Shown one piece after another: positions 37,348-59,345 of a stretch of DNA of 64,000 nt. Origin of the DNA: Marvania coccoides (taxonomy: Eukaryota > Chlorophyta > Trebouxiophyceae > Chlorellales > Chlorellaceae); contig OY978101.1 of NCBI GenBank assembly GCA_963854735.1, positions 806,001 to 870,000 of the forward strand, written 5' to 3'. How positions within the stretch are numbered: the stretch's first letter is position 1; each line of letters opens with the position of its first letter. A program made the translations under genes and the position numbers. Below the pieces are notes generated by a model that saw only the letters and a list, made by a program, of their open reading frames with translations, was not told the DNA's origin and searched no databases.

Positions 37348-40300
37348 CTAAACCGAAGCGCCCTGCAGGCTTTTGATGCTCCCCAGCGGCGACCCTTCAG
37401 CAGTTGAAGTACCTGCGATGCAGCTGGAGAGCGACGCTGCAGGGGTCCGCCCGCTGGAGAGGCTGCTAGACGCTGACATCGGAGTACCCGGCGATGTTGA
37501 AACCCAGCTTGGCACGCTTGCAGGGGTAGCCATCAGCCTGGCAGCAACCTGCGCTGCTGTGGGCCGCCTCCCTGGACGCGTGTCCAGGCACTCCAGGATG
37601 AGATCTCGCACCTCTTCGCCGCATTCTTGGGGGACGCGCAGGTCTCGCAGCTGCCCCCTCATGGGCACCTCCATGGTGCAAATTTCCCTGCGGGAGGCGC
37701 AGGAGAGCAAATATTAGCATCGGGCGAGCGCATTGGGTATAAGTTCGCATTGCCAGCGCAGCAGAAAGATGAAAAAGACATTGAGCGTAAAATTCAGGGG
37801 GGAACCGCGAAAATGCTTTATTTCTCACCATAAAATCACGCCTAAAGAATAAATGTCGGCTTTCACGGTGTGAGGGGTGCTCTCCCCCCACAGAATCTCT
37901 GGGGCGCTCCACGCCAGCGTGGCCACTTTTGCCCCTCCTCCTCCTCCTCCTTCCCGCTCCCCCAGAACCCTGGCCATCCCCACGTCGCAAATTTTGGCGG
38001 TGCGGCGGTCCCTGGTGAGCAGAACGTTGGAAGACTTGAGATCAAAATGCGCGACGTTGCGCGCGTGGAGGTAGGTGAGGCCTCTGGCGATGTCGATAGC
38101 AAGTTTGCGGCCCCGCCGCCACCATGAGATGCGCCCAGCTGCAATGGCATCCACGAGATTGCCACCGTCCATGAACTCCATCACCAGAATGGCAGAATCG
38201 GGCCCAACGTGCGCTCCCACGAAAAGCACAATGTTGGCGTCTCGGCACGCACGCAGCAGCGCAATCTCGCGCTTAAAATTCTCCAGCGTCACTTCGTTGC
38301 TGCTGTCTCCCAGTCTCTGCAATAATTTAAAGAACAAAGTAATAATATCCGGTGTTAAATGTCCCTATGCAAGCATCAGTCAGATGCTTAAAACAGAAAT
38401 GTGTTTTCCGTGCTGATGGCTGCGACCTCCTTTTCCTGAGGCATGTCATCACGCGCATCAGTGCTTTGATTTTGGAGATTTTGGCGAAAATAGCACCGTT
38501 CATGCGCAATTTGGACCGACTCACGAGCTTCTTGACGCCCACCGGCTGAACGCCGTGGTGCAGAGCTTTGTACACGCTACCGGTGGCCCCAGAGCCCAGC
38601 ACCCACTCTGAGCCGTCTGGGCGGCGCATGATCTCGAGCTCTGCCACAACGGAAATAGGTAGATGTCTTATTGAGGGGGGGAAGAGCACCGTAGAAAATA
38701 TAATAAAAGGCAAAGAGAATACATTTCCGTCGCACAAGGGGATAGCATGCAAAGAATGAAAGAAGCGCCCCGCAGACCTGCTGCGCATCAAATGCATGCA
38801 CCAGTGCTGCGCTCTCACCTGCAGGGTTGATTTCCCAGTCGGAAAGGGGAATATCTGCAACAATTTCCCGGGCAAAATTGGAAGATCTTCTGCTGTGCCC
38901 TGTCGCAACAGATCTCAGTGTTTCAGCGCTGCTCCGCCTCGAAGACGGCATTGGCTGGTGCCGAGGGGAAGGCAGGGGGCTGGCGGACAGCGACATTTCG
39001 ACTTCGTCCCCGGCCATTGGCGTGGGCGTGGGCTGGGTGGTCGGCGGGGAGGAGAAGGAGGAGGCAGGCGATTGTGGGGGGCTGTGGGTCGATGTAAAAG
39101 TACGCTTGACGATGTGAGAGAGCCATCTGGTGAGGCGGGTGCACGAAGAGTGGTGTTCATCGCTCTCAGGCGCCGCATCCAGTCGGCGGGAGGTGGATCC
39201 CTGCGCCATTGCATTGGTGCCGGCAAAGGAGGACGCTACCGATGCAAAAGGCGACGTGAGAGCCGCCTGGCCCTCAAACGTGTCGAAAGGGTGCGCCTGC
39301 TTTGTGCAAAATTCACAATAAGAAATAGCGAGTTGAGCAGCAATGGAGAAAAAACTCCGAGTCGCTCTTACGACAGTCGACCAGTGTAGCAGCACAAGCT
39401 GCACTCCTTTGTTTCTCCTTACTTTAATCCCATCGAATAGCCATCTGACTTAGCATTCCAAATATGCCTCCACCTCTCTTTGATTCCTATTGCATGGCTA
39501 TTTATGCCACTTCCCTTTCAGACACAAGCCCACGTATGCATTCTCCCTTTCTTGGCACACGTCTCGCACGCGCCTCCCTTTTATAAGACTGCGCCTCCCC
39601 ATTCTCGGGGCATTAGTTATTATTGCCATAATTAGTCCTGTAAATACTCATACTAATAGAACTAGTCCCTCTATTACACTTGGTTTCGACTCATTTGCAA
39701 AAAAATCATATCAAGGTCCTTGAACGAGCACGTATATCGGCGCTGTTCAAGTGCTCACCTCCCCATTCATATTTTCATACACTGGTAGAAGGTTTTGTGC
39801 CGTGCCAGAGACACACTTCAACCTCTAGACCACTATATCTAGAATATTCTAGAACACCCAATCGAAAAGAAAAAACGCGTACGCACAATTTCTATCAGTC
39901 CTAAACACACTAGGCTTAACTTCAACACGAGGCTAAACTCAACTTCAAGCCCTACCCACAACACCCATCCACCCACCCACCTTTCATCAAGACCCCCCCC
40001 TGCAATGGAGCCCCCTCAACCAGCGCCTGCATTGGAGCAGCCCAGCGTTGCAGAGGTATTGGCCCACTTACGCCAACTCACCATCCAACAGGAGGATTTG
40101 GCGAACCAACTACGCATCCTCCACGGCGAGAACGCCATTCTCCGTCAAACCGTCAGCGAGCGCCCACCCCCTTCCCAAGCCACTGCCTTCATCCAACAAG
40201 AAGCCAAGGTGTCCAAGTTCTCTGGAGAAGCCACCACTATCACGGCTGAGGACTTTCTCAAGGAGCTGCGCGCAGTTGCGTTCCACGCTCGCCAACTGGG

Positions 40301-43300
40301 TCCCCAGGAGAAGATCGCCTTTGCAGTGCGCAACACTGTCGGCCCTGCACGCGAGTGGGTCGTTAACGTGTCTAGTCAATCCTCCCCCAACGACCCCTTC
40401 CACACCTTTGAAGACTTTGCTGCCGCCCTCACCAAGCAATTTGCGAGCGTCAACTCCAAAGACATCGCCGCCAACGCCTTGCGCGCCATCAACCAAGACA
40501 CCAAGGAGTCTACCACCGCCTTCTACACAAGGTTCATCCACGGGGTGCAGCGCTACGAGACAGCTGGGGGACAGCTCTCCGACGACACCAAACTCGAGAA
40601 ATTCAAGTTCCAGCTTTTGCGCCCCCACCACATGGCTTTAGACAACCACATCGCTGGCAAGCGCGCAGACGACCCTACGTACGACATCACGCTCGACGGC
40701 GCACTCCGCTTTCTCGCGCAGCTGGAGGGTAACCCCCTTCAGTTTGAAGAACACGGCGCCTCCTACACCCCCATGGAGATCAATGCTTTCCTTTCCAACC
40801 CCTACCTCAACAACAAGCGTGGCGATAGGCGCCTGCCACAACATGCGCGCGTGTACCACTACAACGCGCAACAGCGGTCCTTCAACGAAGACCGCACCAA
40901 TGACAACCATGACGACAAGCCCCCAACCAAGACCACCAAGACTTGCTTCAAGTGCGGAGCCCCCAACTGGGCCGACGGCCACCAATGCGCAACCAAGTGG
41001 TGAATTAGCAACTTGCGTCGCACGGCTTCTTGCAGCAACGACTTTGCTATCGTGTCTACCATTTCACTTTGCTTACTATCTAAGCAGCTGACCATATCTA
41101 CCCTACTTGTTTAGACTTCTTCACTAGCGGCTCCACCACCCCGCCCCTCCAATGGCATCCATTCAAGTTCAAGTTTCAACTTAAAGTTCCAAGTTCCAAG
41201 TTTCATCTTCTTCAAGTTTCACGACTTGTGCCCATGGAGTCACCACCAAGGGCACATGAAAGACCAACCTACAAACATCCTTGCGCATTTGCCACACATG
41301 GCCGCTCTTAGGGCCAAGTCGACGAGCGTATTTACCAGCAGACAAGCCCTGCATGGCATCCTCCATCAGCGAGACCATCTCTACCAACGAGAATGCGCAA
41401 CAATCGCGCTAGTAGCCCGCGCCGCAGCTTGATCCCCTGCCGCCAAGGCCAAGAAAACCACACCTCTCCACATCCGCCCTACCTAGACTCCACCACCTTT
41501 ATTACAGACCACCCTTCAGCATGCCCAGAAATCACGGAGCCATCGAAGACGCGAGCCTCACTCTTCAGCATGCCCATAGGTGGCCACTTAATGGAGCCAT
41601 CGAAGCTTAACGCCGCCCTTCAGCATGCCCGGATATCACGGTGCCATCGAAGCCGTCCATTAAGACCAAGCTCACGTTTATCTTCCTTCTCACCGCAATC
41701 AAATTTCATCGACATTTTTCTCTGAGACCAAACTCATGACCACACCGTTGCCAACATGGACCTTCCCTACCTACGTGTCACCCTTGGGCCCCAGTGATAC
41801 CCACCTTGCATTCTCCTCCACCGCCTCCGATTCTAAAGGGAGAACGGGCATCGCCAAGACCAAGAACTGATTTGCACCATGCAAGCCCTGCTCCCAATTG
41901 ACATCATCAAGATCTATAGCTTATTGTGCCTGCTTGAAAGAGTAAAAGGGCGTTGCCACGGCATTTTAGCCAGCTGACACCCCTTCACCTCTGTCGTAGC
42001 ACCACGCCACTTGCCGCTACCATTCCACCTCCGCGCCTCCCAAGTTACAAGATTCATCAACGATTCCATCATGGGTCCTACCCAATGCCTTCAATGCTTA
42101 CCACGCGAATTACTAGACCAAGACGTTCTAGGTCCTCCCTGTCGTCCTCTGCCAAGTCTACACAATAACATCTTAAGACCAAGACCAAAACACAATATCA
42201 AGACCCCGCCAAGCACTTCTATGTGACATTAATATGTATCACATCACTCTAGGAAAATTCGCTTTGACTTTTGCATTATTCAACTTATTCCCATCCATCT
42301 ACGCTCCCTAGCGAACAACCACTCGCATTTTCAATTGAAATGTTTCATTACGTTTCTATGCTCGTGCCTTCAAAGAGGACGTAGCTCTTTAGGAGGGAGG
42401 AAAGTTGTAGCAGCACAAGCTGCACACCTTTGTTTCTCCTTACTTTAATCCCATCGAATAGCCATCTGACTTAGCATTCCAAATATGCCTCCACCTCTCT
42501 TTGATTCCTATTGCATGGCTATTTATGCCACTTCCCTTTCAGACACAAGCCCACGTATGCATTCTCCCTTTCTTGGCACACGTCTCGCACGCGCCTCCCT
42601 TTTATAAGACTGCGCCTCCCCATTCTCGGGGCATTAGTTATTATTGCCATAATTAGTCCTGTAAATACTCATACTAATAGAACTAGTCCCTCTATTACAA
42701 CCAGGGTGTGGGAAATGGCACCTGCTGATGGCGTTCCCGTCACCCTTCAGATATCTTTAAAGAGCTTATATTATATTATTTAAAGAGCTTATATTATAAA
42801 TAATCGTCAAAGCACCCTGTACGCAGGTGAAATATTCTTACCTGAGCGAGTGCTGCTCCACGCCGTTTCTTCCTGCAGCCCCGGTATTTCCTAAACAGAA
42901 GAGCTAGAGCTAAAATAATTGCCAAAGTGCCAATCAGAGCCACAGAGACCACCACGGCCGCAACTGGAACGCCACCTCCGTTGCTTGAAGGTTCATCGGC
43001 GGCGGCGGCAAGCAAGGAGCTGCAGTTTGCCAATTCAGGGTTCTCCCTGCACAAAATTCGTGGAAATGCATGTTCAAAACTGAAATGGTAAGAAATCAAC
43101 AGCATCGAACAATGCTAGGGGTCGAAAATTCAACAGAGCCTCCCAGGGGCACTCCCCGAAAGCAGATCGTAATAAACCAGAGTTTCTGGTCCCCTTTTAA
43201 TGTATTTGTATAATACAGGTGTTCCGGAGTGATTTATTCAACCCCGTGTCATCAGTCACAGCAAAAATGCAAAAGGGAGAGTTATTCTAAGGAGTTCCTC

Positions 43301-46771: not shown

Positions 46772-48339
46772 ATGAAATATCAGCCCGAAGATGCGCGCGG
46801 CAGCGGCCGCACGCGCGCAGCTAGCGACTCCGAAGATGAAGATGAGCGTGAGTGGTAAAATTTTGCCCGTCTCCGAGACCGCACTGCCTGCGGGCGCCGT
46901 TAACCATTCGTTTACCCCCTTGTTTGAATGGGCTGCTTTTCCCGTCAGTCAAAATAATTTGAAATCACATTTTCAGTGGGTTTTCAACTTTTTCGTCCCC
47001 TTTGCAGTGCGCATCGCCAACGAGGGGCGGGCGCTGCAGCGGGGCTCCAAGCGGCGGCACATGTTGATCGAGAGCAGCGACGAGGACGATGGCCCTGTCA
47101 CCACCCGCCCCAGGCACCGCTCTCGATCAACAGGTGCCGCCTCCTCCTCGTCCACCCCCCACCAGGCGGCGGCGCCCCAGACCCCCTTGACACCGGATCA
47201 AGTGCGGGCCATCGACGCCGAGGCTCACTGCCTCTGGCAGGCCGTCCACGCCGCTCACGCCGCCCAGGCCACCCGCCCTGACCCCCCCCTCGAGCTCTGC
47301 CTCCCGGCGGCGCAGACCCTGCAGCACGACCACAATGATGCCTTCGTGGCCATGCAGCGCCTGAAGTCCCACCATGGACTGACGGTGCGGCAGGTGGCGG
47401 GGCACCTTCAAATCCCGACGGTCCAAGAGGCCAAGCGCGAGGCAGGGGTGTCAACGGGTGGCGGCCTGAAGGCCGGGGATCGTGTGGGCGCCGTGTACAG
47501 CGTGGCCCCCAAAATCGGGGCAGCTGAGCACACGGCGGCCCACACCGAGTACAAGAGGTGGCTCGCCCTTTCTCCGGCGGAGAGGGCTGTGGAGGGGCTA
47601 GTCAGCGAGCTCAGCGTCGCCAGGCGCTTGCTGGGGTCAGAGATCGGGGCCATCAAGACCAAAATGACGCCCAAAGATCTCGTCGCTCAGATGAAGAGCC
47701 CAAACCCGCCCCAACAGCGGAAGTCCCAGGCCGCGGTAAGTTTTTTATTTAAATCGTTTTCTCTCTCTCTCTCCCACTCCTCATATGCCCACCCACAATT
47801 TTCCTTCTACCATGCTTTCTTCCTTCTTACATTTTCCTCGCTTGTGCGAATATTCCCCCCCTCTGCTGCAGTTGACGCTCGTCACCCACCTCAAGAAAGA
47901 AACCGCCATAAAAACCAACACTGGCAAGGGGAAGCGCAGCATATATGACGCAATGCAGGAATGGCTCTCCAAGGACATTCCTCTGCGCGTCCTGGCCGGG
48001 GACTTACGTGTTTCCGACGCCTTCGCGTCGTTTGCGGGGGAGTTTTCGAGCTTCACCGCGAAGCAGTGGAATGACGCCACCACTGGCTCAAGGAAGAAGC
48101 CCCCGCCCCCAAAAGGCGCCGTCAAGGAGCTCATCGACGAGGCGGTCGAGCTGCTGGCGGCAGCGCCCCCCGGCTCTGCAGAAATGACTCAGCGGCAATT
48201 CATCGCCGAGGAAGAGCAGCAGGAGCGCGAGCAGCGCCCCCTGTCCTGGATTAAAATGGGCGCCAGTCGTTCCATCTCCAGGTCAAGCTCCCGCTGCTCG
48301 CGCTCCTGCTGCTCTTCCTCGGCGATGAATTGCCGCTGA
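46772..48339 (+). CDS. lineage-specific protein of unknown function, 3' end inside a palindrome
   Basis: Exons 46772-46847, 47008-47735 and 47872-48339 give 423 residues in frame. It starts with an acidic/basic low-complexity head (SDSEDEDE, RRHMLIESSDEDDG) and continues with PLTPDQVRAIDAEAHCLWQ, HHGLTVRQVAGHLQIPTVQE (helix-turn-helix-like), RWLALSPAERAVEGLVSEL and a basic, helical third region. I do not recognise the family. The last ~34 codons (from about 48237) read into an inverted copy of the same gene in antisense, so the natural C terminus is lost. The opposite copy preserves what the original tail probably was (RELDLEMERLAPILIQDRG). Extra fragments exist at 51840-51996 and about 55555-55597, so it is a multi-copy, possibly transposon-related, gene. 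Confidence 0.55.
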
Positions 48340-49420
48340 GTCATTTCTGCAGAGCCGGGGGGCGCTGCCGCCAGCAGCTCGACCGCCTCGTCGATGAGCT
48401 CCTTGACGGCGCCTTTTGGGGGCGGGGGCTTCTTCCTTGAGCCAGTGGTGGCGTCATTCCACTGCTTCGCGGTGAAGCTCGAAAACTCCCCCGCAAACGA
48501 CGCGAAGGCGTCGGAAACACGTAAGTCCCCGGCCAGGACGCGCAGAGGAATGTCCTTGGAGAGCCATTCCTGCATTGCGTCATATATGCTGCGCTTCCCC
48601 TTGCCAGTGTTGGTTTTTATGGCGGTTTCTTTCTTGAGGTGGGTGACGAGCGTCAACTGCAGCAGAGGGGGGGAATATTCGCACAAGCGAGGAAAATGTA
48701 AGAAGGAAGAAAGCATGGTAGAAGGGAAATTGTGGGTGGGCATATGAGGAGTGGGAGAGAGAGAGAGAAAACGATTTAAATAAAAAACTTACCGCGGCCT
48801 GGGACTTCCGCTGTTGGGGCGGGTTTGGGCTCTTCATCTGAGCGACGAGATCTTTGGGCGTCATTTTGGTCTTGATGGCCCCGATCTCTGACCCCAGCAA
48901 GCGCCTGGCGACGCTGAGCTCGCTGACTAGCCCCTCCACAGCCCTCTCCGCCAGAGAAAGGGCGAGCCACCTCTTGTACTCGGTGTGGGCCGCCTTGTGC
49001 TCAGCTGCCCCGATTTTGGGGGCCACGCTGTACACGGCGCCCACACGATCCCCGGCCTTCAGGCCGCCACCCGTTGACACCCCTGCCTCGCGCTTGGCCT
49101 CTTGGACCGTCGGGATTTGAAGGTGCCCCGCCACCTGCCGCACCGTCAGTCCATGGTGGGACTTCAGGCGCTGCATGGCCACGAAGGCATCATTGTGGTC
49201 GTGCTGCAGGGTCTGCGCCGCCGGGAGGCAGAGCTCGAGGGGGGGGTCAGGGCGGGCGGCCTGGGTGGCGTGCGCGGCGTGGACGACCTGCCAGAGGCAG
49301 TGAGCCTCGCCGTCGATGGCCCGCACTTGATCCGGTGTCAAGGGGGTCTGGGGCGCCGCCTGGCGGGGGGTGGACGAGGAGGAGGGGCCTGGGGTGGCAG
49401 AAATGGGAGTGCCGGTGGCG
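47130..49420. repeat. inverted repeat 1 (palindrome of the 46772 gene)
   Basis: The left arm, about 47130-48236, and the right arm, 48292 to about 49400, are nearly identical in inverted orientation around a 55-bp spacer (48237-48291). The arms include exon, intron and splice-site sequence, so duplication was at DNA level. Differences are few (for example HTAAH/HKAAH and SPAER/SLAER in the products). Confidence 0.92.
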
Positions 49421-49443
49421 GTTGGTGACCACATCAACGGCAC
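48189..49443 (-). pseudogene. inverted, 5'-truncated copy of the 46772 gene
   Basis: It contains the counterparts of exon 2 (to about 49385) and exon 3 (from about 48655) with intact frames. It lacks the first exon: upstream it runs directly into the duplicated sulfatase 3' end at about 49433. Its C-terminal frame crosses the spacer and keeps the residues ELDLEMERLAPILIQD absent from the plus copy. No promoter is evident. Confidence 0.7.
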
Positions 49444-49553
49444 CGTGACCCTCTACCAGGGAGGCGGCGCGTTCAGGGGCATCAAGGCCACCCGCTTGCC
49501 GCTGAGCCTGGACCTTGCGGGGGAGAGCACCATCACCGGGTCTGGAAAGTTCT
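49434..49553 (+). pseudogene. duplicated 3' end of the sulfatase gene
   Basis: Encodes the last ~40 residues of the sulfatase at 57130-59345 (VTLYQGGGAFRG, LDLAGESTITGSGKF, stop), in the opposite orientation and fused to the truncated inverted copy of the 46772 gene. Confidence 0.9.
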
Positions 49554-49613
49554 AATAATTTGCTTCTTTCACTGGATTGAACGCCTTGATCATTAATTTT
49601 TTTCACTTCGGTG

Positions 49614-49880
49614 CCAGTCTGCTATGTTGCCTTAGTTGCTTCTTTGTGCGGACTTTAAACCTGTAATGTATGTATGTATGTATGTATGTATGTATGTATG
49701 TATGTATGTATGTATGTATGTATGTATGTATGTATGTATGTATGTATGTATGTATGTATGTATGTATGTATGTATGTATGTATGTATGTATGTATGTATG
49801 TATGTATGTATGTATGTATGTATGTATGTATGTATGTATGTATGTATGTATGTATGTATGTATGTATGTATGTATATTAA
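49614..49880 (+). repeat. repeat unit with long (TATG)n tail
   Basis: A short head (CCAGTCTGCTATGTTGCCTT through GTGCGGACTTTAAACC) is followed by about 50 TATG units (49668-49876). A similar head with only four units occurs at 50258-50335, and its inverted-repeat twin at about 56617-56700. The right arm of the inverted repeat lacks this insertion. Heads ending in a tetranucleotide array are typical of some non-LTR retroposon 3' ends. Confidence 0.8.
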
Positions 49881-50809
49881 TGTTTTTCATATTAATGTTT
49901 TTTTTCTCTCTGTATGTCAAAATTGAATGCGCACAAGCGTACCTCCTCTGCTGCGTGGCCTTATTTGCCATCTCTGTGTTGCCGAGTCAAAGCTTTCAAT
50001 ATGAAAAAAATATGGTGCTTATCGGGCATATGAATGAAAAATATATTTATTTATGTTTATATAAATCAATTTAAAACGCTGTTTATATTAGGAGCACACA
50101 AATGGGTGACCATGCAGGCATGCCCCTGCGTGGAAAATGTGAGGTGTAGACATCACCATATTATTGGCATGTGCAATGCACGCAGCGGCACCAGGAGCGG
50201 CCAAACCGAGAAGACCAGGCGCTGGTGGTACCAGGTATATATTTTAATTATAATTTCCAGTCTGCTACGGGGCCTTAGTTGCCGGTTTGTGCGGACTTTA
50301 AACCCTATAATATAATGTATGTATGTATGTATGTAGTAGTACAAGCACAGCAAAATAATTTGGAAATGCTGGCTTCTAACATTGTTCAGAAAAAATATAT
50401 GCTGTTGAAAGCTTGTAAAAGGGCGTCTCGCCCACAGGAACACGGCGTTCTCATTTATAACATGTTGTTGGGAGTCATAAAACAAAATGCGTTTTTTGTG
50501 ATTTTCTTGATTAGAGGAACAACAGTCTTGGCAGAACTACGAGGCGGGACTTTCCCCATACGATCTCAGTTTATTTTTCATATAATTCGCCGCGAAAGAA
50601 AAATAATGCAACACCCGGAAATTGCGAGAACTTGCGGTCAATGCCAGCGTCCAGAACGGCGAGTTTGACAGAAGCTGGGTGGGCTCGAAACGTCTGCAAC
50701 CTCTCTGGTTTCATGGACAATTGATGTTGCAGTATTCATTTCATTATGTGGCGAGCGGGGGCGCTCTGAATCAGCGTGGGTTTGGATATCAAAATTGTAA
50801 ATTTGGGTT

Positions 50810-51130
50810 TTTTTTCATGTGCCCACCAAGCACCGAGGATATCAAGTCTCAATCTTATGTTTCAACAAAAATAAAAATTAAAGAGACACCAGGGGGAGGA
50901 CGCCCTATAGTAGTTGCACGTTTCTACTCAAAGGTTTCCCATCGTCCAGTCACTTGATGAGTGTACCACAATCTGAGACCGATTCCAATTCTCCTGTAGA
51001 TTGTGGCTTAGCCTATATAAGGACTCCTATAGTAGGTGCTCAGTTCCTACTCAAAGGTTTCCCTCGTCCAAATATTTTACCACATCAAAGATATTCCCAA
51101 TCTTCTATTGATGGTGGTGTTTGGTTTTTG
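50810..51130 (+). repeat. dispersed repeat family A
   Basis: The longest copy of the family. It contains two internal near-duplicates of the segment TCCTACTCAAAGGTTTCCC plus TCGTCCA. It is the inverted twin of 55855-56150. Confidence 0.8.
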
Positions 51131-51185
51131 GTGTAAATCGACGTATTTAGAGGTAATTACACTGCCCAGAGGTGCAAAAAAGGGT

Positions 51186-51368
51186 TTGCAAAGAAGGCGC
51201 TTTGCCACTAAGCTAATGCCCCAAGGAATTAATTAATATTAATATATTAATGCCCCGGAGTGACGGCTGCCTGACGGTGAGCATGCCTGATGGTAAGCTC
51301 ACCGCACTTCTCAGAAAGAAGCCACGTCTTCGATGGAGCATGCAAGGATCGAACTCGCGATCTCCTCC
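51186..51368 (-). tRNA. permuted tRNA-Ala(UGC) gene
   Basis: On the minus strand the 3' half comes first (51368-51334): GGAGG anticodon 3' strand, AGATC variable loop, GCGAG-TTCGATC-CTTGC T arm, ATGCTCC acceptor strand, A73. After 111 nt the 5' half follows (51222-51186): GGGGCAT acceptor, TA, GCTT-AGTGGCA-AAGC D arm, G26, CCTTC anticodon stem, TTTGCAA loop with anticodon TGC. The 7-bp acceptor, 4-bp D, 5-bp anticodon and 5-bp T stems all pair. U8, A14, G18-G19, A21, U33, A37, G15-C48 and the alanine identity pair G3-U70 are present. A T6 run (51181-51176) directly after the 5' half is a polymerase III terminator. Permuted tRNAs are known from red algae and prasinophytes; maturation goes through a circular precursor. 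Confidence 0.85.
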
Positions 51369-51993
51369 ACAAAAACCATACAATATCCGAATACATAAGC
51401 ATACCAGACACCAACAACACAAACACACCAACAACACTGCCCCCAACCTGCCAGCAGCACCGTTCCCTAATCCACACTCACCTTCTACATCACCCACATC
51501 ACATCACAAAAATCTAATAAAAATAGGGCCTCCAGGTGGAAATAAAAGACAGATTCTTGACACCAACGATCCTGAGATTTTCAATGTTGCTCAACTGAGC
51601 GGCCCTAACTTGTGGCTTAATCCCCGTTCTCACCTGGATACATGATGTCGTATATTTAACAACCTAAATCAATGGTGCAGAGGGCCTAAATCAGAGGTTA
51701 ATCGGATGCTTCATAAACAATGTCATCACAGCGATCCAAATTTTTGAGGCCGTCATTTTGGTGAATGGACACCCGCATTGCAATCCAAATAGACTAAAAT
51801 GCATAAAATCAGAGTAGCTGCGGAAAAACATAGGAACCATCAACGCGCCCGCCGCCCAGGCCGCACGCCCTGACCCTCCCCTCGAGCTCTGCCTCCCGGC
51901 GATGCAGACCCTGCAGTTTGGCCACGAGCACGCCTTCAAGGCGATGCAGCAGCTGCATGATCACCACGGACTAACGGTGCGGCAGGTGGCGGG
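51358..51993. other. loop region with fragment of the 46772 gene
   Basis: Mostly unrecognised sequence, ending with a fragment (51840-51996) homologous to exon 2 of the 46772 gene, from AAQAARPDPPLELCLPA through LTVRQVAG. It has diverged more than the palindrome arms. Confidence 0.6.
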
Positions 51994-52103
51994 TGTGAGG
52001 GATGCGACATTTAGTCAGCAATTGAGGACTTCATACTTACAACTAAAAATATATAACTAACTGAACTGCACCGCAGAGCAACTACTATATCAAAGAGGAG
52101 GGG
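51994..52103 (+). repeat. direct repeat flanking the integrase fragment (left)
   Basis: About 100 bp, almost identical to 55364-55471, both starting TGTG(A/G)GGGAT and running through GCAGAGCAACTACTATATCA. Position on both sides of integrase remnants suggests LTR fragments, but ends and target duplication are not resolved. Confidence 0.65.
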
Positions 52104-52162: not shown

Positions 52163-53597
52163 TCAGCGCCGGCCACGGCGCGGAGGTAAAACACGGGAGG
52201 GGCGAGACGGAGCTCGTGACTCCCAAAAAGCAGCGACGATAGCACTAGCGCCGCGCTCAATTTCTGCAATTGGCTCCCACGTCGCGACAGGATCGCCGTA
52301 CCACTTCACCAAAAACTTTTTCTGCGGACGAGAACGATATTCAAGAACAGCTTCAACCTCACAGTAAGCGGCTCCGTCATGATAAAAGAACGGGGGCGGA
52401 ACGGAGTCAACCTTACGAAGAGGAAATTGGGTATCGTCTTCGTGGTACAGCTTCAAAAAGGAAACATGGAATACAGGGTGGCCTCTGAAAAAGTCAGGCA
52501 TTTCCAATCTGTACGCCCACTTTCCAATGCGTTCAACAACGGCGAAAGGCCCAACAAATTTGGGCTGCAGCTTAAATGGCGCGATCGTCAGCTAACGATA
52601 CACTTTTATAATCCAGCATGACTTCCGTACCAACGGAATATTCGACATCTTGGCGGCGACGATCAGCAAAAATTTTCATGCTCGCCTGAGATGCGATCAG
52701 GCAGGCCTGGGCGGCCTGAGTGACGGCGTCTCAGCGACCAGCAAATATAGAAACATCAGATGTTGTAGCAACGGCATGTGGCAGGCCAAGTGAGGCTGGC
52801 GTGCGGGGGTGTTGTCCAAAGTTCATGAAAAAGGGGCTAAAACCAGTAGAGACCTGGGTGGAGTTGTTGTAAGCAAAAGCAGCTTTTCTCAAATGACGGT
52901 CCCAAGAAACAGGGTCAGCAGCACAAAAAGAGCGCAAGTAGCGCTCCAAAAACTTGTTCATGACTTCACTTTGGCCATCCGTCTGTGGGTGGTAGGCAGT
53001 TGACATCGCCAACTTTGTGCCTAACAAATCCCAGAGCGAACGCCAAAACTGTGAAACAAATTTGGGGTCCCGGTCAGACACAATGCTGCGCGGGACGCCG
53101 TGCAGCAAGACAAAATTTTCTATGACTAATTCAGCGACTTCAACGGCGGTAGAATTCGTAGTGAGCGGCAAAAAATACACCATTTTGGACAGGCGGTCCA
53201 CAATGGTCAAAACAGCATCAAAACCACGCATAGTTTCAGTCAGGCGGACAATGTAGTCCATAGAGATGGACTCCCAACGGCGAACAGGTATTTCTAAGGG
53301 CTGCAAAAGACCAGCGGGCAACGCGGCGGGCTTTTTGACGCGCTGACAAACAATGCAGCTGCGGCAAAAATCGCCTACTAAATCAGACATTCCAGGCCAC
53401 CAGAAATGGCGCTTCAAAGACAGAAGGGTTTTGCTGCGGCCAAAATGCCCAGCAAGGCCCAAATCATGATGTTCAGTAATCAGACGTTCACGTAAAGCAG
53501 CAGGAATAAAGATGCGGTTGCCATGCACGTGGCGAAATTGTAAAATACCATCAGCTTTGAAATATTTAGAATTCGGCTTATCAATATCAGCTGTCAA
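52163..53597 (-). pseudogene. Ty3/gypsy chromovirus integrase remnant
   Basis: The frame 53597-52731 encodes an integrase: HHCC zinc finger (HHDLGLAGHFGRSK, then FCRSCIVCQRVK), the DDE core (SMDYIVRL, SDRDPKFVSQFW, QTDGQSEVMNKFLERYLRSF) and FAYNNSTQVSTGFSPF. It breaks at 52731. Further down another frame gives the GPF/Y-type module (PKFVGPFAVVERIG) and 52507-52163 gives a chromodomain (CEVEAVLEYRSRPQKKFLVK, WYGDPVATWEP). At least two frameshifts separate these parts, and no reverse transcriptase is found upstream. It is dead and 5'-truncated. Confidence 0.85.
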
Positions 53598-55363
53598 CTT
53601 TTCAAATTCAGCGTTGGATCATGTTCAGCTTTGGAATTCAGGTCAGTCAGCGGAGAAACAACAAAAGGACAGCATTAGGACTCAAAACGAGCGAGCATAG
53701 CAAGCTAGAGAGGCCAAGAGTGCCCACCATGCATCAAAAATGGAAACAGCGCGAGAGAAAAAGAAATGAAGTATGCAGAAGACCAGGCGAGACAGCGTGA
53801 CATATTTTTCAAGACAAAGCACCGGCTGGGACAGATGGCGGGTTCCACGCCCACACATAGAGAGCCACAGTTGACACTTAAGCGTACTGCAACAAGAAAT
53901 GCATGGCTCGGAGCTCATGAGTTAACAAGGAATGCAGCTGCTCAAAACAGCCGGGGGGATTAATTTCATACTGCGAGTATTGTATCTTATGATCTTATCT
54001 TCAGAGCCACAGAGGCATTCCGAATCTCAGCTTAAAATATTTCAAAGGCAGCGTCGTCAAAACAAGGGGCAGTCAGTCGAATAGGAGAATAGTTAAATAG
54101 GGGAAGCGGGCATAGCATAGCCACGGGCGCAGTCTACAAACGACGACATTGGCGAATAAAAAGTGCAACAGCGACAGCATACGATAAGGAGGCAGCGGCA
54201 AGTAAATGGCAGGTTAATAGATCGGCGACGGGTAAGATACATAAGCGAGAGGCTTTGAAAATGGGCTATCCTCAATTACTGACAACCTGTATGGGGCCCG
54301 GTGTACATGCTTGCTGCCGAAATTGTACGTCATTAACGTAAAATACAATCAACAACAAGTGGGAGCAATTGGGTTCCGTAAACCACGCTGTGAAACTGAA
54401 CCAACTTTCTTGTCTGCGGAGAGCTTTATTATAATTCATATTTTTATAATGCTGTTGTAGCGCAGATTGTAAAATCTGGGCCAACAAAATCATCTGCTAC
54501 AGCGTTCATGAACAACGCAATTTCTTCACCCCGGTGGAGAAACGTGGCAACTTTATTTTATTTTTTCATATGCCCACCAAGCACCGAGGATATTAAGTCT
54601 CAATCTTATTTTTCAACAAAAATAAAAATTAAAGAGACACCAGGGGGAGGACGCCCTATAGTAGTTGCACGTTTCTACTCAAAGGTTTCCCATCGTCCAG
54701 TCACTTGATGAGTGTACCACAATCTGAGACCGATTCCAATTTTATTTTTAATTTTAAATTTTTTAAGCTAATTACAGGATCAAATTCACCAACCAGGACA
54801 TGCATAGAGTGGCATCAAAATTCTGGAGGGGAACAACGGCAAAATCCATGTATCATGATAACGGCTAATTTTCAGCGGTGCATTGGACACCGTCCCTGCA
54901 CAATATCGACGCTATTGAAGCCAGCGACGGTAATAAAATAGGGGTGGCGATCTTTCAGTGTCTCAAGGCTATGGAAAAGATGAACATTTCGACGGCGAGA
55001 GGTTGTTCGAAAGGGCCTGGCAGCTCAGAAAGGCGGCGTGCAGCGTTCAGCGTCAAAATGTTGATAAAATAACATGAATAAAATTGTGCAGCGATGTGCC
55101 CGCTATTCAAGGCTGCAAAACACGTATCGGCGGGCGAAGTGCTGTCCAAAGCAAATTATATGGCTCGTAATTTCGGCTTTCATCTATAACATTTCAAATT
55201 CGACAAAACAAACATGGCAACTGAACCCGCAGCACACATCAACTCAAAGATTTATTTAACCAAGTTTGCTCAAGGCAGTAGCAACAACAGCGTCGAACAT
55301 GGCAGCAACTTAATCGCACCCTCGAAAAAAATTCCCGAGGATCGACTTCAGAGTCGAAGCCAG
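53598..55363. other. loop region without genes
   Basis: No coding feature. It contains a repeat family A copy at 54560-54745 (listed) and degenerate sequence that may be the rest of the decayed Ty3/gypsy element. Confidence 0.5.
54560..54745 (+). repeat. dispersed repeat family A
   Basis: Nearly identical to 50815-51000 over about 180 bp, from GCCCACCAAGCACCGAGGAT to ACCGATTCCAATT. It then ends abruptly. Confidence 0.85.
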
Positions 55364-55471
55364 TGTGGGGGATACGACATTTAGTCAGCAATTGAGGACT
55401 TCATACTTACAACTATAAATATAACTAACTGAACTGCACCGCAGAGCAACTACTATATCAAAGAAGAGGGC
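55364..55471 (+). repeat. direct repeat flanking the integrase fragment (right)
   Basis: Partner of 51994-52103 in the same orientation. Confidence 0.65.
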
Positions 55472-55596: not shown

Positions 55597-55768
55597 CGAG
55601 TTCGATCCTTGCATGCTCCATCGAAGACGTGGCTTCTTTCTGAGAAGTGCGGTGAGCTTACCATCAGGCATGCTCACCGTCAGGCAGCCGTCACTCCGGG
55701 GCATTAATATATTAATATTAATTAATTCCTTGGGGCATTAGCTTAGTGGCAAAGCGCCTTCTTTGCAA
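55597..55768 (+). pseudogene. truncated copy of the permuted tRNA-Ala
   Basis: The 5' half (55732-55768) and its T6 terminator are identical to the left-arm gene. The 3' half keeps only the T loop and acceptor strand (to A at 55620). Upstream of 55597 the sequence changes to TTGAAATCACAGTT, so the anticodon 3' strand, variable loop and part of the T stem are gone. It cannot fold as a tRNA. Confidence 0.8.
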
Positions 55769-55854
55769 ACCCTTTTTTGCACCTCTGGGCAGTGTAATTA
55801 CCTCTAAATACGTCGATTTACACCAAAAACCAAACACCACCATCAATAGAAGAT

Positions 55855-56150
55855 TGGGAATATCTTTGATGTGGTAAAATATTTGGACGAGGGAAACCTT
55901 TGAGTAGGAACTGAGCACCTACTATAGGAGTCCTTATATAGGCTAAGCCACAATCTACAGGAGAATTGGAATCGGTCTCAGATTGTGGTACACTCATCAA
56001 GTGACTGGACGATGGGAAACCTTTGAGTAGAAACGTGCAACTACTATAGGGCGTCCTCCCCCTGGTGTCTCTTTAATTTTTATTTTTGTTGAAACATAAG
56101 ATTGAGACTTGATATCCTCGGTGCTTGGTGGGCACATGAAAAAAAACCCA
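55855..56150 (-). repeat. dispersed repeat family A (inverted copy)
   Basis: Part of the right arm; twin of 50810-51130. Confidence 0.85.
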
Positions 56151-57129
56151 AATTTACAATTTTGATATCCAAACCCACGCTGATTCAGAGCGCCCCCGCT
56201 CGCCACATAATGAAATGAATACTGCAACATCAATTGTCCATGAAACCAGAGAGGTTGCAGACGTTTCGAGCCCACCCAGCTTCTGTCAAACTCGCCGTTC
56301 TGGACGCTGGCATTGACCGCAAGTTCTCGCAATTTCCGGGTGTTGCATTATTTTTCTTTCGCGGCGAATTATATGAAAAATAAACTGAGATCGTATGGGG
56401 AAAGTCCCGCCTCGTAGTTCTGCCAAGACTGTTGTTCCTCTAATCAAGAAAATCACAAAAAACGCATTTTGTTTTATGACTCCCAACAACATGTTATAAA
56501 TGAGAACGCCGTGTTCCTGTGGGCGAGACGCCCTTTTACAAGCTTTCAACAGCATATATTTTTTCTGAACAATGTTAGAAGCCAGCATTTCCAAATTATT
56601 TTGCTGTGCTTGTACTACTACATACATACATACATACATTATATTATAGGGTTTAAAGTCCGCACAAACCGGCAACTAAGGCCCCGTAGCAGACTGGAAA
56701 TTATAATTAAAATATATACCTGGTACCACCAGCGCCTGGTCTTCTCGGTTTGGCCGCTCCTGGTGCCGCTGCGTGCATTGCACATGCCAATAATATGGTG
56801 ATGTCTACACCTCACATTTTCCACGCAGGGGCATGCCTGCATGGTCACCCATTTGTGTGCTCCTAATATAAACAGCGTTTTAAATTGATTTATATAAACA
56901 TAAATAAATATATTTTTCATTCATATGCCCGATAAGCACCATATTTTTTTCATATTGAAAGCTTTGACTCGGCAACACAGAGATGGCAAATAAGGCCACG
57001 CAGCAGAGGAGGTACGCTTGTGCGCATTCAATTTTGACATACAGAGAGAAAAAAAACATTAATATGAAAAACATTAATATGAAAAAAATTAATGATCAAG
57101 GCGTTCAATCCAGTGAAAGAAGCAAATTA

Positions 57130-59345
57130 TTAGAACTTTCCAGACCCGGTGATGGTGCTCTCCCCCGCAAGGTCCAGGCTCAGCGGCAAGCGGGTGGCCT
57201 TGATGCCCCTGAACGCGCCGCCTCCCTGGTAGAGGGTCACGGTGCCGTTGACGACGGAGAGTTTGCCGAAGGCGGCCTTGAAGCTGCCGGAGGCGGTTCC
57301 GCGGATGATGCCGATCTGGCTGACGATTTTGACCTTTGCCGAGATTTTTCCGACGGTGCTGGGCACAGATTGATGGGGCCAGTTGGGGAAAGTGTGAATG
57401 GGACTTGGGTTGATGGTGAACTCAAAGGTTATAAAGCCCTTGCCGATCGGCGTGCCGCTGGCAGCAAATGTCAGGGTCTTTTTGCCGGCTGTCCCGTTGA
57501 CGAGGATCAGCGTGATGGGCCGAGTGAGCGGCAGCGGGCCCAACCGGTTTAAGTAAACTCTGTTCAGCTTGCGCTTCAGCCGTTGGTACTCCTTCTCCTG
57601 CACCGCTGTGCGCTTGTAGAGCTTGAACGCCAGGTTGGTCTTCTCGGCGGGGTCCACCAGCAAGTCGTACATCTCCCACTGGCTGGCCACTTTGGTGACC
57701 TCGGCGGAGGGGTCAAAGTATTTTGCAATTTTGTAGCGCTTCTCCCGAATGGCGATGATGTGGTTGGGGTTGGAAACGTACGGCGGCGTGTTTTGCCCAG
57801 ACTGAAAATCGTCGTACGTGAACACGACGTGGTCCTGGACTTGGGCCTTTGGGTTGAAGACGATGGGCGAGAGATCGCGGCCGTTCCATTTGGCGCGTGC
57901 AGCGTGGGGGACTTTAAACAGCGTGGCCAGGGTGGGCAAGAAGTCGACGTGGGATGCCAGGGAGGTGGTCTCTTGGGCGGTGGGGTACAGCTTGGGGTTG
58001 GAGATGATGAGGGGGACGTTGATAGACTGCTCATAAAAGTTGTAGTTCTTCTGGCGCAGCAGGCCGTGGGACAGCCCCGCCTCGCCGTGGTCGCTGGTCT
58101 TGATGACCACCGTGTCGTTGAGGAACGGCGCCAGGGCGTCCAGCGCCTGCACCAGGTACGAATCTGCCAATTTGAGCAGGTTGCCGTAAAAGTTGACGTA
58201 GTTGACCTGTTTCTCGGTGGTGTTGAGTGGGCCCAGGACTGCGTCCGCAATGACCTTGAACTGCTGCTGCACTTTGGGCTTGGTGGGCAGCAGCGACTCG
58301 TTGGCGGTGCTCGGCAGGTCGATGTCTCCTTCCAGCCACGTGTCGTTGTAACCCGACGAGTAGAATAGATTTGTAGGGTACCATATGATCTGCAAGTCAA
58401 AACACAAACATTTATTGCAATTGGTTAACGAGTATTAATTATATCTGGAAGCTGGAACGAATGAATTCTAATCTGGGGGCAAGATAAAACATCGCCTACA
58501 GTTATAAAAACAGATGAATCAGTGAAAAATACTCACGTCGTGGGGGTTGACCAGGGAGATGACCAGAAAGAAAGGTTGGCTTTGGGCAGCGTAGTTGTTG
58601 ATCCACTGCAACGCACCCTCCATGCCGTCCTCCACCGGGCCTTCGCTGGCCATGTAGCGATAGTCGTTGTTGGCCCCTTCTGCGGTGCCGCCTCCAAACT
58701 CCACAAAGCCGTTGCTGTCGCCGGAGTCGGGTGGGTTCCACCGCTCAAACCCGTAATTTGCAATATCGCTGGGGACAAAGGTGCCGTTGGGGTTTGCAGC
58801 TTTGTTGAAGTGGGCCTTCCCCTTGTAGACGACGTTGTAGCCGGCCGCCTTCATCGCCGACGCCAGGTTGGGAATCTCGTCGGGCATCTCCACTTGGGGA
58901 TACTGGGTGTCGGGCATGTTGTAGCGGAGCACGTACCTGACGCCGTGCTGCGCTGGCATGTAGCCGGTCAGCAGGGTTGCGCGGGCGGGGCTGCACAGGT
59001 TGGAGTTTGTAAAGTAGTTCTTAAACGACAGGCCGTTCTTCTTGAGGCGGGTGAGCCCGGGCATGTTGGCTGCTTCCCAGCCCTCAGGGAAGTCTTGGGT
59101 GGAGCGCTCCTCATCGGTGAGGAACAGCACGACGTTCTTGCCCTGTACCACAGAATAGAAGGGGGGGGGGAAGTGATTATTTATAATATAATATATCTAT
59201 CATAATTGGGCAGGGGCCGTTCAAATTCACTATCCTGTGCGGGGTGAAAGCCCAGTCTTACCTTAAAATCGTTCACTGAGAGGCCTCGAACGAGTGCCAG
59301 GCCGAGCAGCAGGAGGAGAAGGAGGGGCGAATGCAGGACAGCCAT
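57130..59345 (-). CDS. secreted sulfatase (arylsulfatase family)
   Basis: Exons 59345-59262, 59142-58537 and 58389-57130 give 649 residues in frame. A signal peptide is obvious (LLLLLLLGLALVRG). The formylglycine site is NLCSPARATLLTGY with Cys at about residue 78, the C-x-P-x-R motif modified by the formylglycine enzyme. Metal ligands are suggested by FLTDEER (Asp about 38) and KTSDHGE (about 330). Several N-glycosylation sequons occur (NDT, NTT, NES). It is likely a periplasmic or wall enzyme releasing sulfate from organic sulfate esters. The last ~130 residues form a beta-rich extension beyond the sulfatase fold (TLFAASGTPIGKGFITF-like). Its 3' end is duplicated in inverted repeat 2. Confidence 0.9.

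Follow-up and report, generated by a model that had tools for sequence, protein, structure and literature searches.

The window that we analysed, a stretch of 64,000 nucleotides of the Marvania coccoides genome, carries on its minus strand the two halves of a tRNA in reversed order, with the 3' half (51369-51334) upstream of the 5' half (51222-51187). The 3' half (TGGAGGAGATCGCGAGTTCGATCCTTGCATGCTCCA) comprises positions 38-73, from T38 to A73, and the 5' half (GGGGCATTAGCTTAGTGGCAAAGCGCCTTCTTTGCA) comprises positions 1-37, from G1 to A37, and bears the anticodon TGC; both were delimited on the sequence and by ARAGORN applied to the joined form. The intervening sequence (51223..51333) is 111 nt in length and contains no TTTT, and the 5' half is followed by the trailer AACCC and a T6 run (51181-51176), which together occupy 51176..51186 on the same strand, the run being a likely Pol III terminator. 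Upstream lies a leader (51370..51400, minus strand), in which ATGGTTTTTG adjoins the 3' half and TATGTAT is found farther out, and which may serve a promoter function. The order of the halves, the distance between them and the T6 run had been put forward in the initial annotation and can be read directly from the sequence; its layout stands, with the start of the 3' half moved to 51369 if T38 is counted with that half.

Joined, the halves form a 72-nt tRNA that was called tRNA-Ala(tgc) by ARAGORN, and pairing is standard throughout its stems (21 of 21 pairs: 7 in the acceptor, 4 in the D, 5 in the anticodon, and 5 in the T stem), with G-U accounting for three of the pairs. The letters show G3.U70, A73, T8, A14, G18-G19, T33, T54-T55-C56, A58, and the G15-C48 pair, in agreement with the earlier claim of a fully paired 72-nt tRNA with a Levitt pair, the anticodon TGC, G3-U70, and A73. 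CCA is absent from the gene, and TCG follows A73. A37 is the last nucleotide of the 5' half and T38 the first of the 3' half, which would set the point of joining at 37/38, and this register fits all eleven of the permuted genes described below. In the genomic order, neither ARAGORN nor Rfam at gathering scores found a tRNA in the window. Our own scanner, which looks for a permuted cloverleaf with a 37/38 junction and short variable loops only, returned a single match in the window, with a score of 35; 300 shuffled windows with roughly the same dinucleotide content yielded 11 matches in total, the best scoring 31 and none reaching 35, in keeping with the initial judgement that chance formation was very unlikely.

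Permuted genes in the nuclear tRNA set

The strain M. coccoides CCAP 251/1B has been described as having a genome of 22.3 Mb in 13 chromosomal pseudomolecules, a mitochondrion of 49.04 kb and a plastid of 99.87 kb (PMC11833223); the assembly that we searched contains 22,462,713 bases in 13 large contigs and contigs of 49,038 and 99,873 bases. A covariance model of permuted tRNA, built on 28/49 rearranged tRNAs, matched the window gene only partly because of the long spacer, and it was replaced by short T-arm and D-arm box patterns followed by application of our own scanner to the places fetched. Ten further permuted tRNA genes were identified on nuclear contigs in this way: Arg(UCG) with a spacer of 43 nt, Arg(CCG) with 6 nt, Glu(CUC) with 8 nt, Phe(GAA) with 8 nt, Ala(CGC) with 21 nt (L108; G000:C6:846945-847335, plus strand), Arg(UCU) with 56 nt, Leu(CAG) with 7 nt, Thr(CGU) with 6 nt, Arg(CCU) with 54 nt, and Gly(GCC) with 85 nt (L111 and L125; G000:C1:2435290-2435600, minus strand). 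Once joined, all 11 permuted genes, the window gene included, gave the expected tRNA in ARAGORN, and the set includes two Ala and four Arg isoacceptors. At Ala(CGC), the whole 5' half and its T-run are repeated in tandem, 61 nt from start to start, an arrangement resembling an intermediate as envisaged in the duplication model of permuted genes.

One pattern search returned 21 places, 18 of them nuclear and made up of 6 permuted genes, 3 conventional or intron-containing genes, and 9 places at which the fetched stretch held no recognised tRNA. A search with GGTTCRARYCC returned 84 places, of which 44 were nuclear; 3 of these were already known, 29 lay outside the examined set, and the 12 that were fetched comprised 4 permuted genes, 2 Ser genes with introns, and 6 places without a whole recognised tRNA. 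Altogether, Rfam, ARAGORN, and the scanner identified 23 nuclear tRNA loci, a lower bound rather than a census, of which 11 were permuted, 6 contained an intron (Pro, Cys, Lys, Thr, and two Ser, the last two by the scanner alone), and 6 were contiguous (Val, Gln, Met, Gly UCC, Glu UUC, and Asp). Places without a recognised tRNA could conceal genes with long spacers, and Gly(GCC) needed 73 more bases beyond L111. ARAGORN found no match in 17 fetched loci, L111 among them, a result that is uninformative on permuted genes. The count of eleven refers to scores of at least 33 on the scale of the second scanner. One row that scored 33 (L078) was dropped because two ordinary mitochondrial tRNAs are combined in it, with a variable loop of 16 nt; the scanner matches at L009/L075 and L010/L078 combined neighbouring organelle tRNAs, that at L003 was AT-rich mitochondrial sequence, and a minus-strand match at L089 with a score of 27 was also dropped. 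Separately, part of the intron-containing tRNA-Lys(CUU) gene was observed a second time, about 5 kb away and on the opposite strand (L121; G000:C8:773511-773751); the repeated stretch is the 3' portion, comprising the end of the intron, the T-arm, the acceptor strand, and a T-run.

Because ten further permuted tRNA genes reside in the genome, permutation is a regular gene format in Marvania and not an accident. These findings suggest that, in the algal clade to which Marvania belongs, much of the tRNA set escapes standard annotation. Several anticodons in Marvania may have a permuted gene as their sole source.

The inverted duplication and the source of tRNA-Ala(UGC)

In a search of the genome, the sequence of the gene was found at two places only, the 51176-51369 region and a truncated inverted copy at 55597-55767 on the plus strand. 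Sequence comparison divided the copy into a 3' half cut off within the T stem and without positions 38-49 (55597..55620), an identical intervening sequence (55621..55731), and an identical 5' half (55732..55767) with the same T6 after it. The two places belong to an inverted duplication of about 1.66 kb, with arm A at 49434..51357 (minus strand) and arm B at 55597..57251 (plus strand); the arms are 100% identical over 1,484 and 172 nt, and an 8-bp tandem array (about 49605-49874) is present in arm A and absent from arm B. The second copy retains the spacer and the 5' half and lacks positions 38-49 because the repeat terminates, at its inner end, within the T stem of the tRNA. A Ty3-type integrase open reading frame (ORF) (52731-53597, minus strand) lies between the arms, and a Ty3-type gag ORF was noted at 40005-41003 (plus strand); direct repeats at 51993-52102 and 55363-55470 may be long terminal repeat (LTR) pieces, and the repeats and both ORFs are remains of Ty3-type retroelements. 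A near-perfect palindrome of 2.25 kb with arms 98% identical and 55 nt between them occupies 47140-49385.

The initial annotation had asked for a normal tRNA-Ala(UGC) gene elsewhere, and a partial survey, consisting of the Rfam tRNA search, BLAST with the joined tRNA, and inspection of Ala-like 5' ends, found no conventional nuclear one. The Rfam search is lossy and missed an intron-containing Pro gene. BLAST with the joined tRNA, at E<=10, revealed no further site in the genome resembling tRNA-Ala(UGC). Ala-like 5' ends were found at 49 places, two of which were the 5' halves of Ala(CGC), and two others among the closest (L123 and L124) were not called as tRNA by ARAGORN. The one other tRNA-Ala(UGC) that was seen is on the 49-kb mitochondrial contig and presumably serves the organelle. 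GCA accounts for 24 of the 116 alanine codons in three ORFs of the window, and a tRNA that reads GCA is therefore needed.

As first proposed from the window, the locus is best read as a permuted tRNA-Ala(UGC) gene that is complete and has its own terminator, and the ten further permuted genes accord with this reading. From its sequence features, we hold with considerable confidence that 51176-51369 (minus strand) represents a working type II (37/38) circularly permuted nuclear tRNA-Ala(UGC) gene of M. coccoides, one of at least eleven. The locus could conceivably be a once-active permuted gene that is now silent or decaying, with some other nuclear gene providing the Ala UGC tRNA; surroundings rich in repeats and retroelements, the truncated copy in inverted orientation, a spacer of unusual length, poor pairing at the junction, and a genome whose tRNA-like places were read only in part would all suit such a history. 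We nevertheless regard it as improbable, since every one of the 21 stem pairs is standard and the gene has its T6 run, BLAST with the joined tRNA disclosed no second source, and ARAGORN did not recognise a tRNA at the two further Ala-like 5' ends.

That two halves of a tRNA are merely resembled by a tRNA-derived repeat or by the primer-binding site of a retroelement is hardly credible, in spite of the Ty3-type gag and integrase ORFs and LTR-like repeats nearby. The locus is not a short interspersed element (SINE) because only two copies exist in 22.5 Mb, and one of these arose through local inverted duplication, which disposes of the SINE-like repeat that had been named as a possible refutation. 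A primer-binding site consists of TGG, complementary to the CCA end, followed by the complement of the acceptor; TGG would have to precede TGGAGC, whereas the plus strand has CGA before TGGAGCATGC, and the pairing spans both halves with the anticodon stem included. An assembly or sequencing join that set the halves in the wrong order, also entertained at the outset and conceivable where a large 100% inverted repeat ends inside a gene and chimeric joins could arise, can be set aside with near certainty because the order of T-arm and acceptor, spacer, and 5' half occurs at two places on the contig, in arms that differ by the 8-bp array, and because the assembly was built from HiFi reads at 1,105-fold coverage with a QV of 66.5 (PMC11833223), quite apart from the ten other permuted genes elsewhere in the genome.

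Junction, spacer, and proposed maturation of the precursor

We suggest that the Marvania cell probably makes its permuted tRNAs by first closing a circle, because at least ten other tRNA genes have the same back-to-front layout. In the pathway described for other algae (PMC3978253), the splicing machinery removes the leader and trailer from a linear precursor, ligation produces a circle, and the spacer is then removed by RNase P and tRNase Z, with subsequent addition of CCA. Transcription of the window gene would proceed through the leader, the 3' half, the 111-nt spacer, and the 5' half to the T6 run, the last of which is visible in the DNA. The halves would fold to a cloverleaf with the anticodon loop open at 37/38; by analogy with the published algal pathway, the splicing endonuclease would cut off the leader and trailer, after which A37 would be joined to U38 by a ligase, for which RtcB is the simplest candidate, to give a circular precursor. 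RNase P, in the form of PRORP, and tRNase Z would excise the spacer at the acceptor stem, and CCA would be added. Candidates for several of these activities are encoded in the Marvania genome: exons matching Sen2 and Sen34, an RtcB gene in three pieces, and a PRORP gene were found. A partial match to Tau95, a component of TFIIIC, was also found, and TFIIIC-free transcription, as suggested for Cyanidioschyzon merolae (PMC3978253), therefore cannot be assumed.

The initial annotation had proposed that the leader and the sequence after the anticodon pair to form a junction like a bulge-helix-bulge, and a trailer-leader helix of AACC with GGTT is indeed possible at the tRNA-Ala(UGC) junction. A control in which leaders were swapped among the ten permuted genes other than Gly(GCC), with the anticodon stem held fixed, gave no support to the proposal, with leader-trailer pairing averaging -7.8 kcal/mol for cognate leaders versus -7.3 for swapped leaders. 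The cognate leader ranked first of ten for Leu(CAG), second for Phe and Arg(CCU), fourth for Ala(UGC), and fourth to seventh for the others, and the bulge-helix-bulge was accordingly rejected as proof of the junction. The rule for an anticodon-intron pair concerns 32:-3, which in the tRNA-Ala(UGC) gene would be T:T, and the joined model sequence folds with a shifted helix of 12 bp that sets 27-38 against a GGAGGAG stretch and the leader. As no consistent bulge-helix-bulge is present at the junction, the endonuclease in Marvania may read the body of the tRNA, in the manner of a ruler, and not a bulge-helix-bulge motif.

Four or more consecutive T residues begin 3-9 nt past position 37 in each of the 11 permuted genes (TATATTTT in Gly(GCC)), against a background in which T4 occurs in 5.8% of 13-nt stretches from 30 fetched nuclear loci. 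TATGTAT and GATATTGTAT are found upstream of the tRNA-Ala(UGC) gene, and inspection by eye of the sequences upstream of ten permuted genes revealed no clear common TATA-like promoter element. TGGTTTT is situated near the 3' half in three of ten permuted genes, Ala UGC (51370-51385), Ala CGC (L108), and Phe (L106); ten other nuclear tRNA genes all lacked it within 60 nt upstream, and its background is 0.0014 per 20 nt. TGGTTTT could reflect a shared promoter or common descent and is only a lead, because it was noticed afterwards.

In the spacer of the tRNA-Ala(UGC) gene, each acceptor strand is present a second time, with a copy of the acceptor 3' strand (GCATGCTC) at 51279..51286 (minus strand; original at 51336-51343) and a copy of the start of the 5' half (GGGGCATTA) at 51248..51256 (minus strand; original at 51214-51222). 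Among 5,000 shuffled spacers, an equally long word common to the 3' end was present in 108, one common to the 5' start in 44, and both in 1, in a test performed after the copies had been noticed. The spacer thus seems to have grown by nested duplication of both acceptor strands inside itself, and these copies would leave competing acceptor pairings in the precursor; the tandem repeat at permuted Ala(CGC) represents an event of a similar kind. A 2014 table gives spacers of 1-74 nt for permuted tRNA genes (PMC3978253), a range and not a definition of such genes, and the 111-nt spacer of Ala(UGC) and the 85-nt spacer of Gly(GCC) exceed its longest entry. Whether all three elements hold together, with 37/38 permutation as a main format of nuclear tRNA genes in Marvania, a spacer that has grown by acceptor duplication, and an endonuclease that reads the tRNA body, we consider evenly poised.

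Relation to permuted genes of other lineages

Permuted tRNA genes are rare, with 34 listed in a 2014 review (PMC3978253), and they have been reported in a red alga, in prasinophytes, in the nucleomorphs of chlorarachniophytes, and in a single archaeon (PMC3978253, PMC4494063) and from Auxenochlorella, a trebouxiophyte (PMC12636532; preprint PMC12633428). The remark in the initial annotation that such genes were described in a red alga and later in prasinophyte-type algae needs amending for Marvania, as the host is neither of these but a trebouxiophyte, a class already represented by Auxenochlorella. The literature that we searched contains no report of permuted tRNA genes for Marvania or the Nannochloris clade, and the main text of the Marvania genome paper uses neither "tRNA" nor "permuted" (PMC11833223). 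The circular-precursor pathway in other algae and permuted genes in Auxenochlorella are thus already known; what is new is the lineage, the number of genes, the spacers of 111 and 85 nt, and the second acceptor-strand copies in the Ala(UGC) spacer. In a culturable green alga that combines a genome assembled to chromosome level, 11 or more permuted genes, candidate genes for much of the pathway, and spacers as different as 6 and 111 nt, circularisation, the removal of spacers, and the recognition of junctions would be open to direct tests, and its lineage and the density of permuted genes make Marvania worth following.

The type II genes of Ostreococcus, Micromonas, and the Bigelowiella nucleomorph likewise have the 3' half upstream and a 37/38 junction (PMC3978253). 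Those set out in that review are mostly Ser, Leu, Cys, and iMet genes with spacers of 5-64 nt and include no Ala; the Marvania gene differs from them in being Ala(UGC) and in its 111-nt spacer with second copies of the acceptor strands. The permuted genes of C. merolae are described as having T-runs past the 5' half and no encoded CCA (PMC3978253), and this red alga possesses a permuted nuclear tRNA-Ala(UGC) gene, of the same amino acid and anticodon as that in Marvania. The C. merolae gene has a type IV junction (59/60) and an 8-nt spacer (PMC3978253), in contrast to the type II junction and 111 nt in Marvania, and because both junction type and spacer length differ, the two permutations, judged on their gene structures, very likely arose independently. 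Auxenochlorella UTEX 250-A, of the same class, has permuted nuclear tRNA genes for which an initial tRNAscan-SE search was incomplete (PMC12636532), a likeness of class and of the presence of permuted genes. In Ostreococcus lucimarinus, the permuted tRNA-Cys(GCA) gene has an extra 5' half adjoining it (PMC3978253), as does Ala(CGC) of Marvania, whereas the extra pieces of Marvania Ala(UGC) are the two acceptor strands within the spacer. Among protein-coding sequences, a poly(A) polymerase is 86% identical to that of the nearest named relatives, Nannochloris sp. 'desiccata', and 88% identical to a JGI protein.
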